From Parafrankia discariae (GTDB lineage Bacteria > Actinomycetota > Actinomycetes > Frankiales > Frankiaceae), in NCBI RefSeq assembly GCF_000373365.1, contig NZ_KB891104.1, positions 1 to 64,000 on the forward strand: 64,000 nt of DNA, given 5' to 3'. The notes below the pieces were generated by a model. It did no database searches. It was not told the origin of the DNA and worked only from the letters and a program-made list of their open reading frames with translations. Positions 9,534 through 21,364 of this stretch are shown here, piece by piece. Within the stretch, counting starts at the first letter, position 1. Each line of letters starts with the position of its first letter. The position numbers were made by a program, and so were the translations under genes.

Positions 9534-10094
9534 GTGGCCGGTTCCGAGCGCGCCGACGCCGCCCGCAACCGGGCCGCGATCCTCGCGGCCGCGGCGGACC
9601 TGTTCGACCGCGACGGCGCCGAGCAGGTGTCGATGAACGACATCGCCCGGGCCGCGGGGGTCGGCAAGGGCACCCTTTTCCGCCGTTTCGGCGACCGCAC
9701 CGCGCTGATCGAGGCCGTCCTGTACCCGCGGGTGGCCGCGATGCTGGCCCGCGTCGAGCACGGGCCTCCCCCGCTCGGCCCCGGCGGGGAGCCCGTCGCC
9801 GCGCTGCACGCCTACCTCGACTCCCTGCTCGACTTCGTCTGGACGAACCGCACCCTGATCCGCGCGCTCGAGCACCACGGCCCGCGCGCCTACTACTCCA
9901 ACCCGTCCAGCCGGTACTGGATCGGCGAGCTCGACCGGCGCCTGGCCGCCGTGCGCCCGGGCGAGAACACCGACTATTTGGCGCACGTGCTGTTCACCGC
10001 TCTGCGGGCCGACGTCGTCGACTATCTCGTCTCCGGCCGCCAGATGGACCCCGAGCGGGTCCGCACCGGCCTGCACCGCCTCGCCGGCAGCTGA
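9534..10094 (+). CDS. TetR/AcrR-family transcriptional regulator, 186 aa
   Basis: One-domain TetR repressor. The N-terminal helix-turn-helix is in residues about 10-55 (VSMNDIARAAGVGKGTLFRRF region). The ligand-binding half carries GPPPLGPGGEPVAALHAYLD and HVLFTALRADVVDYLVSGR. The GTG start has a perfect AGGAGGTG 5 bases upstream. It lies between two copies of a near-identical operator module (9365-9414 and 10153-10202), so it most likely represses the divergent P450 operon, itself and the downstream acyl-CoA dehydrogenase operon. A paralogue that shares the ligand domain but not the HTH is at 20532-21017. The ligand is probably a pathway intermediate (inference). Confidence 0.92.
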   Translation: MAGSERADAARNRAAILAAAADLFDRDGAEQVSMNDIARAAGVGKGTLFRRFGDRTALIEAVLYPRVAAMLARVEHGPPPLGPGGEPVAALHAYLDSLLDFVWTNRTLIRALEHHGPRAYYSNPSSRYWIGELDRRLAAVRPGENTDYLAHVLFTALRADVVDYLVSGRQMDPERVRTGLHRLAGS

Positions 10095-16667: not shown

Positions 16668-17927
16668 CTAGCCCTGGTACCCGGCCACGTAGTCGCTCGC
16701 GGTCTTGTGCAGGTGCCGGATGGCGAGCTCCTGGTCGTTGAGCGGGAACCGCGAGACCACACGGGACTCGAGCATGGTCTGGGTGGCCTCGAGGGTGTTG
16801 CAGTCCTGCAGCGCGAACTCCTTGAAGGTGACCGCGGCCAGCTCCTGGCGGATCCGGTCCTGCGCGGTCCGCGGCGGCACGAAGTACAGCGTGCCCTCGA
16901 AGATGTGCTGGTTGTACGCCGTCGGCCAGTAGTGGTAGGTGAGGTACCAGCCGGTCGCCCACACCACGATCATGAAGTTCGGGAAGAAGACGTAGGAGTC
17001 CAGGCCCCAGGCCGGGTGGCCGGCCGGGTTGACCCCCGGCGGCAGCGGGTTCAGGCCCTCGAGGTCGGGCCGGTCCCAGGGCCCGAAGTTGCCGCTGCGC
17101 AGGACCCGCTCGATCGGCTTCACCATGTTGAGGTCCTTGGGCGGCGACATCCCGCCCCACGCCGACTGCATCGAGTGCGACCCGTCGAGGTCGTAGTGCA
17201 GGGACTCGTAGCCGTAGCCCAGCAGCTTGCGTGACTCGTCGCCCACGTACTGCTTCGCGTGCAGGACGGGTGCGTGGTAGAACTCCGCGAACGCGTCGAT
17301 GTAGAGCTTCCAGTTGCTCCCGACCTCGGCGCGGTACTTGTAGACCTCGGTCATCTCGCCGAAGGGATAGCCCTGCAGGCCCTTCGCGAAGCGACCCAGG
17401 TACTCGGCCAGCGGGGTCGTGCCCTCGCTGTCGAGGTTGACGAAGATGAAGCCCTCCCACAGCTCACAGCGCACCGGCACCAGACCGAGCTGCGCCCGGT
17501 CGATGTCGAAGAACTCGGACTCCTGCTGGACGAACGTGCAGGAGCCGTCGAGCCCGTAACGCCAGGCGTGGTACTTGCACTGGAACTGGCGGGCCGTGCC
17601 CTGCGTCTCCTCCTGGGGGAAGTCGTTCCACACCAGCTTGTTGCCGCGGTGCCGGCAGACGTTGTGGAACGCGCGGACCTCGCCCTCGGCGTCGCGGACG
17701 ACGATCAGCGACGCGCGCGCGGCCTTGATCTCCTTCGTGAAGTAGTTGCCGGTCCGCGGGATCTGCTCGACCCGGCCGACATTGAGCCAGGTCCGCTCGA
17801 AGATCGCTTTGCGCTCCAGCTCATAGTGCTCGGGCGAGATCGAGTCCTCGAACGAGACGAACCCGGTACCGAGATCCGGGTAGTGCTCGGTCCAGCTGCC
17901 CTCCGCGGGCTTCGGGAAGTGCGCCAT
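16668..17927 (-). CDS. Rieske non-haem iron oxygenase, alpha subunit, 419 aa
   Basis: Second ring-hydroxylating oxygenase of the island. Rieske ligands: CRHRG and CKYHAW. Catalytic iron: EFYHAPVLH, again with Glu at the bridging position. It is shorter than, and clearly different from, the first Rieske protein. ATG at 17927 has GGAGGT 6 bases upstream. Its promoter is visible: TTGACC (18061-18056) and TAGGGT (18038-18033) with a 17-bp spacer on the leftward strand. It is divergent from the TetR-AKR fusion gene, which is the obvious candidate regulator. Confidence 0.92.
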   Translation of the reverse strand: MAHFPKPAEGSWTEHYPDLGTGFVSFEDSISPEHYELERKAIFERTWLNVGRVEQIPRTGNYFTKEIKAARASLIVVRDAEGEVRAFHNVCRHRGNKLVWNDFPQEETQGTARQFQCKYHAWRYGLDGSCTFVQQESEFFDIDRAQLGLVPVRCELWEGFIFVNLDSEGTTPLAEYLGRFAKGLQGYPFGEMTEVYKYRAEVGSNWKLYIDAFAEFYHAPVLHAKQYVGDESRKLLGYGYESLHYDLDGSHSMQSAWGGMSPPKDLNMVKPIERVLRSGNFGPWDRPDLEGLNPLPPGVNPAGHPAWGLDSYVFFPNFMIVVWATGWYLTYHYWPTAYNQHIFEGTLYFVPPRTAQDRIRQELAAVTFKEFALQDCNTLEATQTMLESRVVSRFPLNDQELAIRHLHKTASDYVAGYQG

Positions 17928-18032
17928 CCGTCTACCTCCGAGCCGATGCACGTACGAGCCGCGTGGCCACGGGTCACCGCGAGCTCCGAAACGATCCGTC
18001 CGCGTGCCGTTTCTCCAGCCGCGTGAGAATGA

Positions 18033-18061
18033 ACCCTACGAGCCCGTATGGTTTGGGTCAA
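18033..18061 (-). promoter_or_regulatory. Sigma-70-like promoter of the second Rieske gene
   Basis: On the leftward strand TTGACC (-35, 18061-18056) and TAGGGT (-10, 18038-18033) are separated by exactly 17 bp. Transcription would start near 18026, giving a leader of about 100 nt before the ATG at 17927. Confidence 0.6.
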
Positions 18062-18135: not shown

Positions 18136-18171
18136 TTGACCCGAATCCGACGCACCCGTAGCTTTACTGGA
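18136..18171 (+). promoter_or_regulatory. Leaderless promoter of the TetR-AKR fusion gene
   Basis: TTGACC at 18136-18141 and TAGCTT at 18159-18164 are spaced by 17 bp, and the A of the ATG at 18171 is 7 bases after the -10 box. No ribosome site precedes the ATG. Together this predicts a leaderless mRNA, which is common in actinobacteria. Confidence 0.65.
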
Positions 18172-19820
18172 TGGAGTCCAGGGCGGGTGGCGAGCGTTCA
18201 CGGGCCGGGCGCCCCACGGCGACGGAGGCCGCCAGGCTGACCGAGCGGCTCCGGCGGGCCGCCGTCGACACGTTCCTGGAGTCGGGCTACGACGGCACCA
18301 CGATGGAGGCCGTGGCGCAGGCCGCGGGCATCACCAAGAGCACCCTGTACGCCCGCTACCCCGACAAGCGGACGCTGTTCATCGCGGTGAGCTCGTGGGC
18401 ACTCACCCGCCAGGAGCGCGACGAGCGCGTCCTCGAACCGCTGCCCGACGACCTCGCCGAGAGCCTGACCGTGATCGCGCGGGCGATCCTGGCCCGGTCG
18501 GTCGACCCCGACATCGTCCGCCTGAGCCGGATGGCGATCGCCGAGTCCGCGCGCTTCCCCGAGTTCGCGGTCAGCTCGCAGGCCGTCACCTGGTCACCGC
18601 GGGTCCAGCTGATCATTGATGTGCTGCGCCGGCACGAGAGCGCGGGCACCGTGGTCGTCGGGGACGTCGACCTCGCCGCCGAGCAGTTCTTCGCCATGGT
18701 CGGCGCGATGCCGGCGTGGCTGGCCGCCTACGGCATCTACCGGACCCCCGAGGTCGAGGAGGAGCACCTCCACCACGCGGTGAGCCTCTTCCTCAACGGC
18801 GTCCTGGCCAGGCCGGAGACCACGGCGGGCCCGCACCCGGCCGAGGTCGGCCGGCCCGCCGGGGGGAGGCCCGCCGGCTGGCGGACGAACGGGCCGGCGG
18901 CCGTCCAGCGCGCGAGCGGGCCGATGGAGTACCGGCGGCTCGGTCGCAGCGGGCTGACCGTCTCCCGGTTCGCGCTGGGAGCCACGGCCCTCGGCACCGG
19001 GCCCGCGGGCCGCGACGAGCGGGCCGCGATCGGCGTCATCCACCGCTTCCTCGACGCCGGCGGCAACCTCCTCGACACCACCCCCGCCGCCGGCCCGGGC
19101 CCGGGCGGCACCGGCCCGGGCGGCACCGCTCCGGACGGTGCCGTGCTGGAGCTCTGCGGCCGCGCGGTGCGGGACCGGCGCGCGAGCGTCGTGCTGGCCG
19201 CGAGCGTCGGGCCGCCGACCGGCCCGGAGCCCCGGGAGGGCGGGAACAGCCGCCGCCACCTCCGGGCCGCCTGTGAGTCGATCCTCCGCCGGCTCCGGAC
19301 GGACCATCTCGACCTGCTCCAGCTCGACGTCGACGACCCGACGACCCCGCTGGAGGAGACGGTCGAAGCGCTGGACGACCTGGTGCGCGCCGGCAAGGTC
19401 CTCTACGTCGGGGCCGCCAACCTGCGCGTCCACCGGGTGATGAAGGCGCTGTCGGTCAGCGACCGGCTGGGCCGGGCGCGGTTCGTCTCGTTCCGCGGGC
19501 GGTACGACCTGCTCGCCCGGGAGCTCGAACGCGAGCACCTCCCGCTGCTGGCGGAGGAGGGCCTCGGCCTGATCAGCACCGGATACGGACACGGACCGGC
19601 CGACGCCGCCGCGGCGGCCGCCGTGAGGGCCGCGGCGGCGGAACTGGGATGCACGACCGCGCAGCTGTCGCTGGCCTGGCAGCGGACGAGACCCGTCACC
19701 TCGATCACCCTCGACGTGGCCGCCGTGGCCCAACTGGACGAGCACCTCGCGGCCCTGGGCATCGAGCTTTCGACCGAGATCGCGGTCGGGCTGGAAAGGG
19801 CCGCCCACCTCCGGGGATGA
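18171..19820 (+). CDS. TetR regulator fused to a catalytically degenerate aldo-keto reductase domain, 549 aa
   Basis: One uninterrupted frame. Residues about 1-215 are a complete TetR protein: HTH GTTMEAVAQAAGITKSTLYA, then LFIAVSSW and a C-terminal ligand domain. A Gly/Pro/Arg-rich linker leads to an aldo-keto reductase barrel from residue 252 (MEYRRLGRSGLTVSR) to the end. Of the AKR tetrad, only the Asp remains (D302 in NLLDTT). The Tyr is missing from the altered TTPAAG segment, the Lys position is Ser345 (LAASVG) and the His position is Asp386 (LLQLDVDD). The AKR part is thus probably a binding or sensing domain rather than an enzyme (inference). An internal ATG at 18924 has only a poor ribosome site. 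It is divergent from the Rieske gene, its likely target. Confidence 0.85.
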   Translation: MESRAGGERSRAGRPTATEAARLTERLRRAAVDTFLESGYDGTTMEAVAQAAGITKSTLYARYPDKRTLFIAVSSWALTRQERDERVLEPLPDDLAESLTVIARAILARSVDPDIVRLSRMAIAESARFPEFAVSSQAVTWSPRVQLIIDVLRRHESAGTVVVGDVDLAAEQFFAMVGAMPAWLAAYGIYRTPEVEEEHLHHAVSLFLNGVLARPETTAGPHPAEVGRPAGGRPAGWRTNGPAAVQRASGPMEYRRLGRSGLTVSRFALGATALGTGPAGRDERAAIGVIHRFLDAGGNLLDTTPAAGPGPGGTGPGGTAPDGAVLELCGRAVRDRRASVVLAASVGPPTGPEPREGGNSRRHLRAACESILRRLRTDHLDLLQLDVDDPTTPLEETVEALDDLVRAGKVLYVGAANLRVHRVMKALSVSDRLGRARFVSFRGRYDLLARELEREHLPLLAEEGLGLISTGYGHGPADAAAAAAVRAAAAELGCTTAQLSLAWQRTRPVTSITLDVAAVAQLDEHLAALGIELSTEIAVGLERAAHLRG

Positions 19821-20047: not shown

Positions 20048-20404
20048 ATGAGTATCTACGACGCTATCGGTGGTGCGAGCGCCGTGCAGGCCGCGGTCGA
20101 CGAGTTCTACGTCCGGGTGACGGCCGACCCCGATCTCGCGCCCTTCTTCGCCGGCAAGGACCTCCCGCGGCTCAAGGCGCACCAGCAGGCCTTCATCTCC
20201 GCGGCGATCGGCGGGCCCGAGGTCTACCAGGGCGGCGCGATCGCCGCGGTGCACTCCGGGCTGCGCATCACCGACGCCAACTTCGACGCGGTGGTCGACC
20301 ACCTGGTCTCCGCGCTGAGCGGCCTCGGTGTCCCGGCGGAGACCACCGGCAAGATCGGAGCGGTGCTCGCCCCGCTGCGGGCCGACATCGTCACGGTGAA
20401 GTAG
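20048..20404 (+). CDS. glbN: Group I truncated haemoglobin, 118 aa
   Basis: Small 2/2 globin that binds O2/NO; family members detoxify NO or buffer oxygen. It starts SIYDAIGGASAVQAAVDEFY, with the B10 Tyr in FYVRV, the GG turns, and the proximal F8 His in AAVHSGLRI. ATG at 20048 matches the family start; an in-frame ATG at 19991 would add 19 residues of no family similarity. The ribosome site is weak. It stands alone, convergent with the TetR-like gene and separated from it by a strong hairpin. Haem and oxygen handling may support the many oxygenases nearby, but that link is only suggestive. Confidence 0.93.
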   Translation: MSIYDAIGGASAVQAAVDEFYVRVTADPDLAPFFAGKDLPRLKAHQQAFISAAIGGPEVYQGGAIAAVHSGLRITDANFDAVVDHLVSALSGLGVPAETTGKIGAVLAPLRADIVTVK

Positions 20405-20531: not shown

Positions 20532-21017
20532 TCAGACGGCGACGAGGCTGCGCAGGCCGTCGCGGACCCGCGAGAGCGGCATCCCGCGGGCCGAGACGAG
20601 GTAGTCGACGACGTTCGCCCGCAGCGCGGGGAACAGCACGTGCGTCAGGTACTCGGCCTGCGCGTCGGCGTCTCCACCGGGACGGGTGGCGGCCACCCGT
20701 CGCGCCAGCTCGCCGATCCAGAACTCGCTGAGCGGGCTGGTGTAGTAGGTCTCCAGCCCGTCCTCCTCCAGGGCGCGGATGAGGGCGCGGTTCGCCCAGA
20801 CGAACTCGAGCAGAGCGTCGAGGTAGGCGTGCAGCGTGTCGACGGGCGCTCCGCCCGGCCCGAGCGGCGGCGGCCCCTGCTCGACCCGCTTGCGCAGCGC
20901 GGCGGCACGGGGGGCCAGGATCGCGTGAATCACGGCCGCGTGGTCACCTTTTTCGGGAGCCGCCGCTCTTTTCAGGGCCACCGTTCTTTCCGGAGCCGCT
21001 GCTTTTTCGGTGGCCAC
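20532..21017 (-). CDS. TetR ligand-domain paralogue lacking the helix-turn-helix, 161 aa
   Basis: From GDHAAVIHAIL onward it matches the catabolic TetR at 9534-10094 throughout its C-terminal domain (RVEQGPPPLGPGGAPVDTLHAYLD, FWIGELARRV, LRANVVDYLVSARGM). The part that should hold the DNA-binding helices is replaced by about 30 residues rich in Ala, Lys, Pro and Glu. The upstream frame to 21266 contains no HTH either. GTG at 21017 has GGGGAGGA 5 bases upstream, like the paralogue. The gene thus looks expressed, not simply broken. A protein that can dimerise and bind ligand but not DNA could titrate the repressor (inference). Paired operator-like palindromes lie right upstream at 21041-21084. 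Confidence 0.8.
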   Translation of the reverse strand: MATEKAAAPERTVALKRAAAPEKGDHAAVIHAILAPRAAALRKRVEQGPPPLGPGGAPVDTLHAYLDALLEFVWANRALIRALEEDGLETYYTSPLSEFWIGELARRVAATRPGGDADAQAEYLTHVLFPALRANVVDYLVSARGMPLSRVRDGLRSLVAV

Positions 21018-21040
21018 TGCACTCCTCCCCTCGCGGAGGC

Positions 21041-21084
21041 GGACTGATGGTCCGCATCGTAACAGCATTCCGGACCGACGGTCC
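21041..21084 (+). promoter_or_regulatory. TetR operator module C
   Basis: Two palindromes of the same type as modules A and B: ggactgatggtcc (21041-21053) and ggaccgacggtcc (21072-21084), joined by a stretch starting gcatcgt like gtatcgt in the others. It lies 24 bp upstream of the HTH-less TetR gene (leftward) and about 280 bp before the membrane protein gene (rightward). As with module A it separates a tetR-type gene from a divergent gene. Confidence 0.7.
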
Positions 21085-21364
21085 GCTTCCGCCGTCAGAC
21101 GACGCCCTGCTCGCCGGTCGGACGGCCTCGACCCGCCGTTTCCCGAAGAGGTGTGGATCCAGAGGTAGCCCGGCGCCCCGCGCACCGGTGGCGCCGGCAC
21201 GCTCCGTGGCACCCGGTACCCGTCCGGCGCACTGAACGACGCCGCTCGGTGGTGGCCCTGCGCCACCGTGTAGAAATGCGCGGTCTGCCGGGAGAGTCCC
21301 GGTGTGCGCGTCCGGTGCCCCGCGAGCGGCCGTCCGGGCGACCGAACGTCAGGAACCGGGAGCC

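Follow-up and report, generated by a model that had tools for sequence, protein, structure and literature searches.

A TetR repressor fused to a catalytically depleted aldo-keto reductase-derived domain, apparently restricted to Parafrankia and divergent from a Rieske oxygenase gene

The window, by which we mean the whole 64,000-nucleotide stretch analysed (Parafrankia discariae, contig NZ_KB891104.1, positions 1 to 64,000), carries on its plus strand a single open frame of 549 codons. It encodes a TetR regulator, a linker and a domain derived from the aldo-keto reductases (AKRs), and it is transcribed away from a Rieske oxygenase gene. The parts of the locus are as follows.

16668-17927, minus strand: Rieske oxygenase alpha subunit, divergent, presumed target (Pfam PF00355 and PF00848)
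18032-18053, no strand: predicted operator 1, 22 bp, AACC-N2-ACG-N4-CGT-N2-GGTT (inverted repeat, 0 mismatches)
18144-18165, no strand: predicted weak operator 2 (11 of 14 fixed positions)
18171-19820, plus strand: fusion gene, 549 aa (open frame; Pfam domains; orthologs in 6/6 genomes of the genus)
18255-18389, plus strand: TetR_N helix-turn-helix (HTH), residues 29-73 (Pfam PF00440, E 4e-13)
18459-18794, plus strand: TetR_C_7 (AefR-like) ligand/dimer domain, residues 97-208 (Pfam PF14246, E 4e-18)
18813-18923, plus strand: Pro/Ala/Gly-rich linker, residues 215-251, differing in length among species
18924-19817, plus strand: AKR-derived pseudoenzyme domain, residues 252-549 (Pfam PF00248; AlphaFold2 barrel; tree)

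An earlier note on this DNA had proposed that one frame joins a TetR repressor to an AKR domain. An open frame by itself is weak evidence in GC-rich DNA, where long antisense frames are open too, and we used in-frame indels and omega as evidence in place of the stop-free frame. The join is borne out by the Pfam domains of the 549-codon product and by the same fusion in all six genomes of the genus that were examined. PF00440 scores 49.3 bits against a cut-off of 24 and PF14246 scores 65.8 bits against 22, while Aldo_ket_red (PF00248) covers residues 268-536, above its cut-off (E 6e-34). Residues 217-280, which take in most of the linker, have a pLDDT below 50 in the full-length AlphaFold2 run.

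Each of these six Parafrankia genomes carries the fusion in complete or almost complete form, with Parafrankia soli, P. colletiae, Parafrankia sp. EUN1f and Frankia sp. EI5c as named carriers. A search of named records returned 31 loci, comprising 4 fusions, 25 TetR-only matches and 2 AKR-only matches. Outside the genus, no fusion was found among 35 family genomes (E 1e-70; at most 40 candidates scored per genome), 296 class genomes (E 1e-75; at most 4) or 246 phylum genomes (E 1e-50; at most 5), samples that overlap and from which remote fusions could escape given the limited candidates per genome. Plasmids gave no match at E 1e-25. TetR-only matches at E <1e-70 occur, among the 35 family genomes, in six of the eight genomes assigned to genus g7, in the lone g4 genome and as extra copies in two members of the genus itself. 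The fusion is thus a genuine oddity and, from these searches, apparently genus-restricted. Three further loci (L014, L015 and L023, in genomes G002, G004 and G020) hold stand-alone TetR paralogs that are 66-67% identical to the fused TetR, and the window's Rieske oxygenase is unmatched within the 14-16 kb examined around them.

The earlier note had named the divergent Rieske oxygenase as the target of the repressor, which is probable given a conserved pairing and a conserved inverted repeat. A TetR gene faces a divergent Rieske gene in all 14 distinct loci, six fused and eight unfused; the unfused loci (L017-L022, L029 and L030) lie in other genera, and L031-L034 duplicate loci already in this count. 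Identity to the window's oxygenase is 83-96% in the other five fused loci and 66-81% in the eight unfused ones, and the fused and unfused Rieske-linked TetRs share one clade (100/99) in the TetR tree. The inverted repeat fits 12-14 of its 14 fixed positions in 14/14 distinct loci (3 of the 17 rows tested being second copies), in a test that is partly circular, the pattern being drawn from the tested loci, and that used mononucleotide shuffles. Within the 7.9-Mb own genome, the only copy with 0 mismatches is operator 1 itself, and with at most 1 mismatch there are 4 places, versus 1 for the reversed control.

Promoter elements were assigned by eye; at its threshold, a sigma-70 scan reported no promoter in this intergenic space. 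Predicted operator 1 covers the spacer of a putative Rieske promoter (TTGACC at 18061-18056 and TAGGGT at 18038-18033), and predicted operator 2 covers the spacer and -10 of a putative promoter for the fusion gene (TTGACC at 18136-18141 and TAGCTT at 18159-18164). By score, operator 2 is equalled by 17990-18011, also 11 of 14; copies fitting 10-12 of 14 lie at its matching place in L010-L013, L029 and L030. Because the -10 of the fusion gene, as read by eye, stands only six bases before the ATG, the layout suggests a leaderless message. Judged on this sequence evidence, the TetR half resembles a long-established, ordinary local repressor, and since eight unfused orthologous TetRs share the oxygenase and the repeat but have no such AKR fused to them, the basic switch does not require the AKR half.

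Two neighbouring frames were also recorded. Directly 3' of the fusion, 20048-20404 (plus strand) encodes a bacterial-like globin (PF01152), which is 95% identical to its counterpart at the same place in P. soli. The frame at 20532-21266 (minus strand) resembles the window's TetR at 9534-10094 but has no helix-turn-helix and no Pfam match; its P. soli copy (L025, 10392-11045) runs through an HTH, relative to which about 45 residues, HTH included, are missing in frame. This frame may be either a regulator ligand domain without its DNA-binding part or a decayed gene.

Structure prediction, which the earlier note had asked for, gave an eight-stranded barrel for the AKR half (AlphaFold2; pLDDT 83.3, pTM 0.86) from a nine-row alignment that included four free AKRs. 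With the fusions alone covering this half, the full-length run returned poor confidence (ten-residue blocks averaging 28-77), so the AKR fold rests partly on relatives. The nearest solved structure to the model by Foldseek is 4xk2 (TM 0.85), which is also the best solved relative by sequence (E 2e-36). The barrel had been called complete: all eight strands are indeed modelled, but two parts of active AKRs are missing, the conserved stretch that follows strand 7 and the C-terminal tail.

We then placed the catalytic tetrad by alignment of the six fusions with ten "active" AKRs, a label that here means a complete tetrad by sequence only (seven loci of the own genome plus L016, L024 and L071). 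All features lie in the AKR half.

19074-19076, plus strand: Asp302, the sole tetrad residue retained (6/6 fusions)
19089-19091, plus strand: Ala307, at the catalytic Tyr place
19203-19205, plus strand: Ser345, at the catalytic Lys place
19326-19328, plus strand: Asp386, at the catalytic His place
19578-19610, plus strand: shortened beta7-alpha7 stretch, at the W-S-P-L-x-x-G place of active AKRs

The catalytic Tyr, Lys and His are each invariant (10/10) in the tetrad-complete AKRs. The earlier reading of the tetrad holds, with Asp302 kept, Ser345 and Asp386 correctly placed and the Tyr place changed, and it extends to the other fusions: Tyr, Lys and His are gone in all six and Asp is kept in all six. 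The substitutes vary by species, the Tyr place reading A/-/-/-/R/P across the six fusions, the Lys place S/S/G/G/S/T and the His place D/D/S/S/A/G. The cofactor site fares similarly. We take the NADP(H) site to consist of the Ser after strand 5, the Gln of strand 6, the W-S-P-L-x-x-G segment after strand 7 (the NADPH loop) and the Gly of strand 8. The fusions retain the strand-5 Ser in 0/6, the strand-6 Gln in 1/6, the W in 0/6, the Gly of P-L-x-x-G in 0/6 and the strand-8 Gly in 0/6. Judged by these residues, the catalytic and NADPH sites were lost together, the NADPH site as a whole. Six residues on the ligand face (G275, S360, D302, D389, T392 and Y445) are fixed in all six fusions, and R450 is kept in all five readable ones; they may conceivably mark a small residual site.

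The AKR tree groups the six fusion AKR halves as one clade (100/100), with two free, tetrad-complete AKRs as its sister (100/100): L016, from the P. colletiae genome G001, and L024, from the Pseudofrankia-type genome G030. The L024 AKR overlaps a preceding same-strand TetR gene by an ATGA stop/start, and this TetR is a paralog, outside the clade of fused and unfused Rieske-linked TetRs. None of the unfused Rieske-linked loci examined has an AKR of the L016/L024 type downstream on the same strand; the AKR at L034 is a different one, 27-36% identical and on the opposite strand. Among 276 class genomes, a match to the L024-type AKR at E <1e-95 came from G030 only (G001, which holds L016, gave no match, presumably because the sample did not include it). 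A layout such as that of L024 could readily give rise to a fusion. We infer that two TetR loci recombined and that the stop was then lost, probably once only, in the common ancestor of the genus, although the TetR tree, in which an open fork holds the fused TetRs, is by itself no demonstration of a single event. In G001, at L057 (8125-9177, 11303-11944 and 12450-13691), the free AKR has another TetR about 2 kb away and, at about 3 kb, another Rieske oxygenase that is 68% identical to the window's, so genes of the TetR, AKR and Rieske families cluster more than once.

To compare constraint along the gene, omega was computed for the 15 fusion pairs by the Nei-Gojobori method, which is rough in DNA this GC-rich. 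It is 0.00-0.18 for the HTH region (residues 10-75), 0.10-0.23 for the TetR_C_7 region (76-214), 0.49-2.04 for the linker, 0.34-0.75 for the whole AKR half and 0.17-0.43 for the AKR core (359-470); the Rieske gene gives 0.03-0.21. The ATG at 18924-18926 is kept in all six fusions though the linker before it drifts freely. Within the barrel, six between-lineage fusion pairs yield a ligand-face omega of 0.65-1.19, every pN/pS interval including 1, and an omega of 0.31-0.60 for the remaining frame, every interval below 1. For the two close fusion pairs, the face omegas are 0.64 and 0.35, with intervals that include 1, and the frame omegas are 0.41 and 0.35. In the matched active pair L016-L024 (dS 0.60), omega is 0.15 for the face and 0.17 for the frame. 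Compared with the active pair, frame omega in the fusions is higher by a factor of roughly two to three and a half, and pure decay of the frame would be not far off. These estimates indicate a ligand face that drifts at about the neutral rate and a frame under purifying selection. Drift of the face alone could also mean new ligands, which is a reason for caution.

Identities by structural class (four classes, computed with gaps left out) give the same contrast. L016 and L024 share 92% of the ligand face, 85% of the helices and 87% of the opposite-face loops; for the six between-lineage fusion pairs, the corresponding values are 33-54%, 54-72% and 80-93%. In 15/15 fusion pairs the ligand face ranks lowest in conservation among the four classes, and in 0/15 highest; among active pairs it ranks lowest in 8/45 and highest in 3/45. 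The mean difference between face and helix identity is -0.17 in the fusions versus +0.05 in the actives (45 pairs), and across the ten active AKRs the face stands at 0.43 and the helices at 0.40. L016-L024 is a favourable comparison, yet on these identities the contrast between fusions and actives holds over the whole set. From alignment column 215 on, the window protein and that of P. soli also differ by six in-frame indels, and the EUN1f and G002 proteins differ by three; the downstream core stays in frame in each comparison. Were indels under no frame constraint, with one third of them keeping frame, a run of nine like these would have a probability near 5e-5 (hand calculation).

Several explanations of the AKR half were weighed against these data. 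It might be a pure passenger, roleless and decaying, with the TetR half doing everything; we regard this as rather unlikely, though well worth reckoning with. The near-neutral linker and ligand face, the frequent indels and low-complexity insertions, and the unfused orthologs that work without an AKR half all fit a passenger. Set against these are a barrel frame whose omega and intervals stay below 1, the low values of the core, alpha-beta loops that are 80-93% identical between lineages, and a reading frame intact in all six genomes despite at least nine indels. This evidence of constraint is not decisive, since any attached tail should show some. The proposal of the earlier note, a metabolite or NADPH sensor recruited to gate DNA binding, fares worse and in our estimate is very improbable. 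A regulator bearing an enzyme fold, a barrel that AlphaFold2 retains, and the fixation of Asp302 and a few other face residues speak for it, and ligands could differ by species. However, the tetrad and the NADPH contacts are gone together, the face is the least conserved class in every fusion pair with an omega about neutral and not clearly above 1, and the substitutes at the Lys and His places vary among species. Moreover, a changing ligand is not expected, because the oxygenase is 83-96% identical in the other five fused loci. These data argue against NADPH sensing and make a sensor of a shared ligand unlikely.

Two further possibilities concern the gene product itself. An internal start at ATG 18924 might also yield a separate AKR-like protein, which would be compatible with the other readings; we consider it improbable. 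An ATG stands at this place in all six fusions, where many free AKRs begin, and the anti-Shine-Dalgarno duplex reaches -6.6 kcal in EUN1f and -5.9 kcal in G002. But the window's duplex at 18924 is -4.9 kcal, equalled or exceeded by 42% of the tested in-frame places, the energies fall to -1.7 in P. colletiae and -2.6 in EI5c, no promoter- or terminator-like site appears at the scan threshold, and the product would have neither the AKR tetrad nor the NADPH site. The probability that an assembly or sequencing error fused two genes, which the earlier note had listed as grounds for refutation, is negligible. An adjacent two-gene TetR-AKR layout does exist in L024, but the same fusion in six separate assemblies, with AKR halves 51-92% identical, rules such an error out.

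On balance, we favour, with confidence somewhat better than even, a TetR repressor that senses through its own TetR_C_7 pocket and carries a folded but inert pseudo-AKR tail with a structural or weak role. This weighting takes in the control of 45 active pairs, which is less extreme than the matched pair L016-L024. On this model, a repressor dimer would bind 22-bp operators within the Rieske promoter and its own, blocking both. The inducer would probably come from the oxygenase pathway, as a substrate or a product, and would bind the TetR_C_7 pocket rather than the AKR barrel, freeing the repressor from the operators. The AKR-derived half would remain folded, binding neither NADPH nor a common ligand, and might be retained for structure (the repressor's stability, bulk or contacts) or simply because misfolding of the tail would damage the repressor.

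A bolder possibility, which we hold only tentatively, is that a retired TIM-barrel enzyme has become a purely structural repressor module, its ligand face drifting while the opposite face and helices are kept; such a module could, for example, set the oligomer state, the lifetime of the repressor or partner docking. If true, this would add a new architecture to the TetR family and show an enzyme domain reused in nature with its active face discarded. The loci described here form a series toward an enzyme within a regulator, from an unfused repressor-oxygenase pair through a free AKR behind a paralogous TetR to a genus-wide fusion, and the free AKRs and unfused repressors make the role of the fused dead enzyme directly testable.

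The earlier note knew of no established regulator of this design, and none appears in literature titles and abstracts among the matches listed. Gal80 and other oxidoreductase-derived regulators place an enzyme fold inside a transcription regulator, and Gal80 binds NAD(P); unlike Gal80, the fusion AKR half has lost its cofactor site, and in place of a conserved nucleotide or ligand pocket it has a face with a between-lineage omega of 0.65-1.19. TetR regulators with an AefR-like C-terminus (PF00440 and PF14246) resemble the fusion in both domains, in a divergent presumed target and in an inverted repeat in the intergenic space, but the fusion has about 335 extra residues, the linker and the AKR-derived barrel. 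AKR enzymes of the 4xk2, DepB, MtmW and Kv-beta kind are similar in fold and sequence, whereas the fusion is without the Tyr, Lys and His, the NADPH loop and the strand-8 Gly. The TetR and free AKR pair of G030 (L024/L056) differs in being two genes with a complete AKR tetrad and a paralogous TetR, yet it shares with the fusion the same two families in the same order and on the same strand, and its AKR, together with L016, forms the nearest AKR clade to the fusion.
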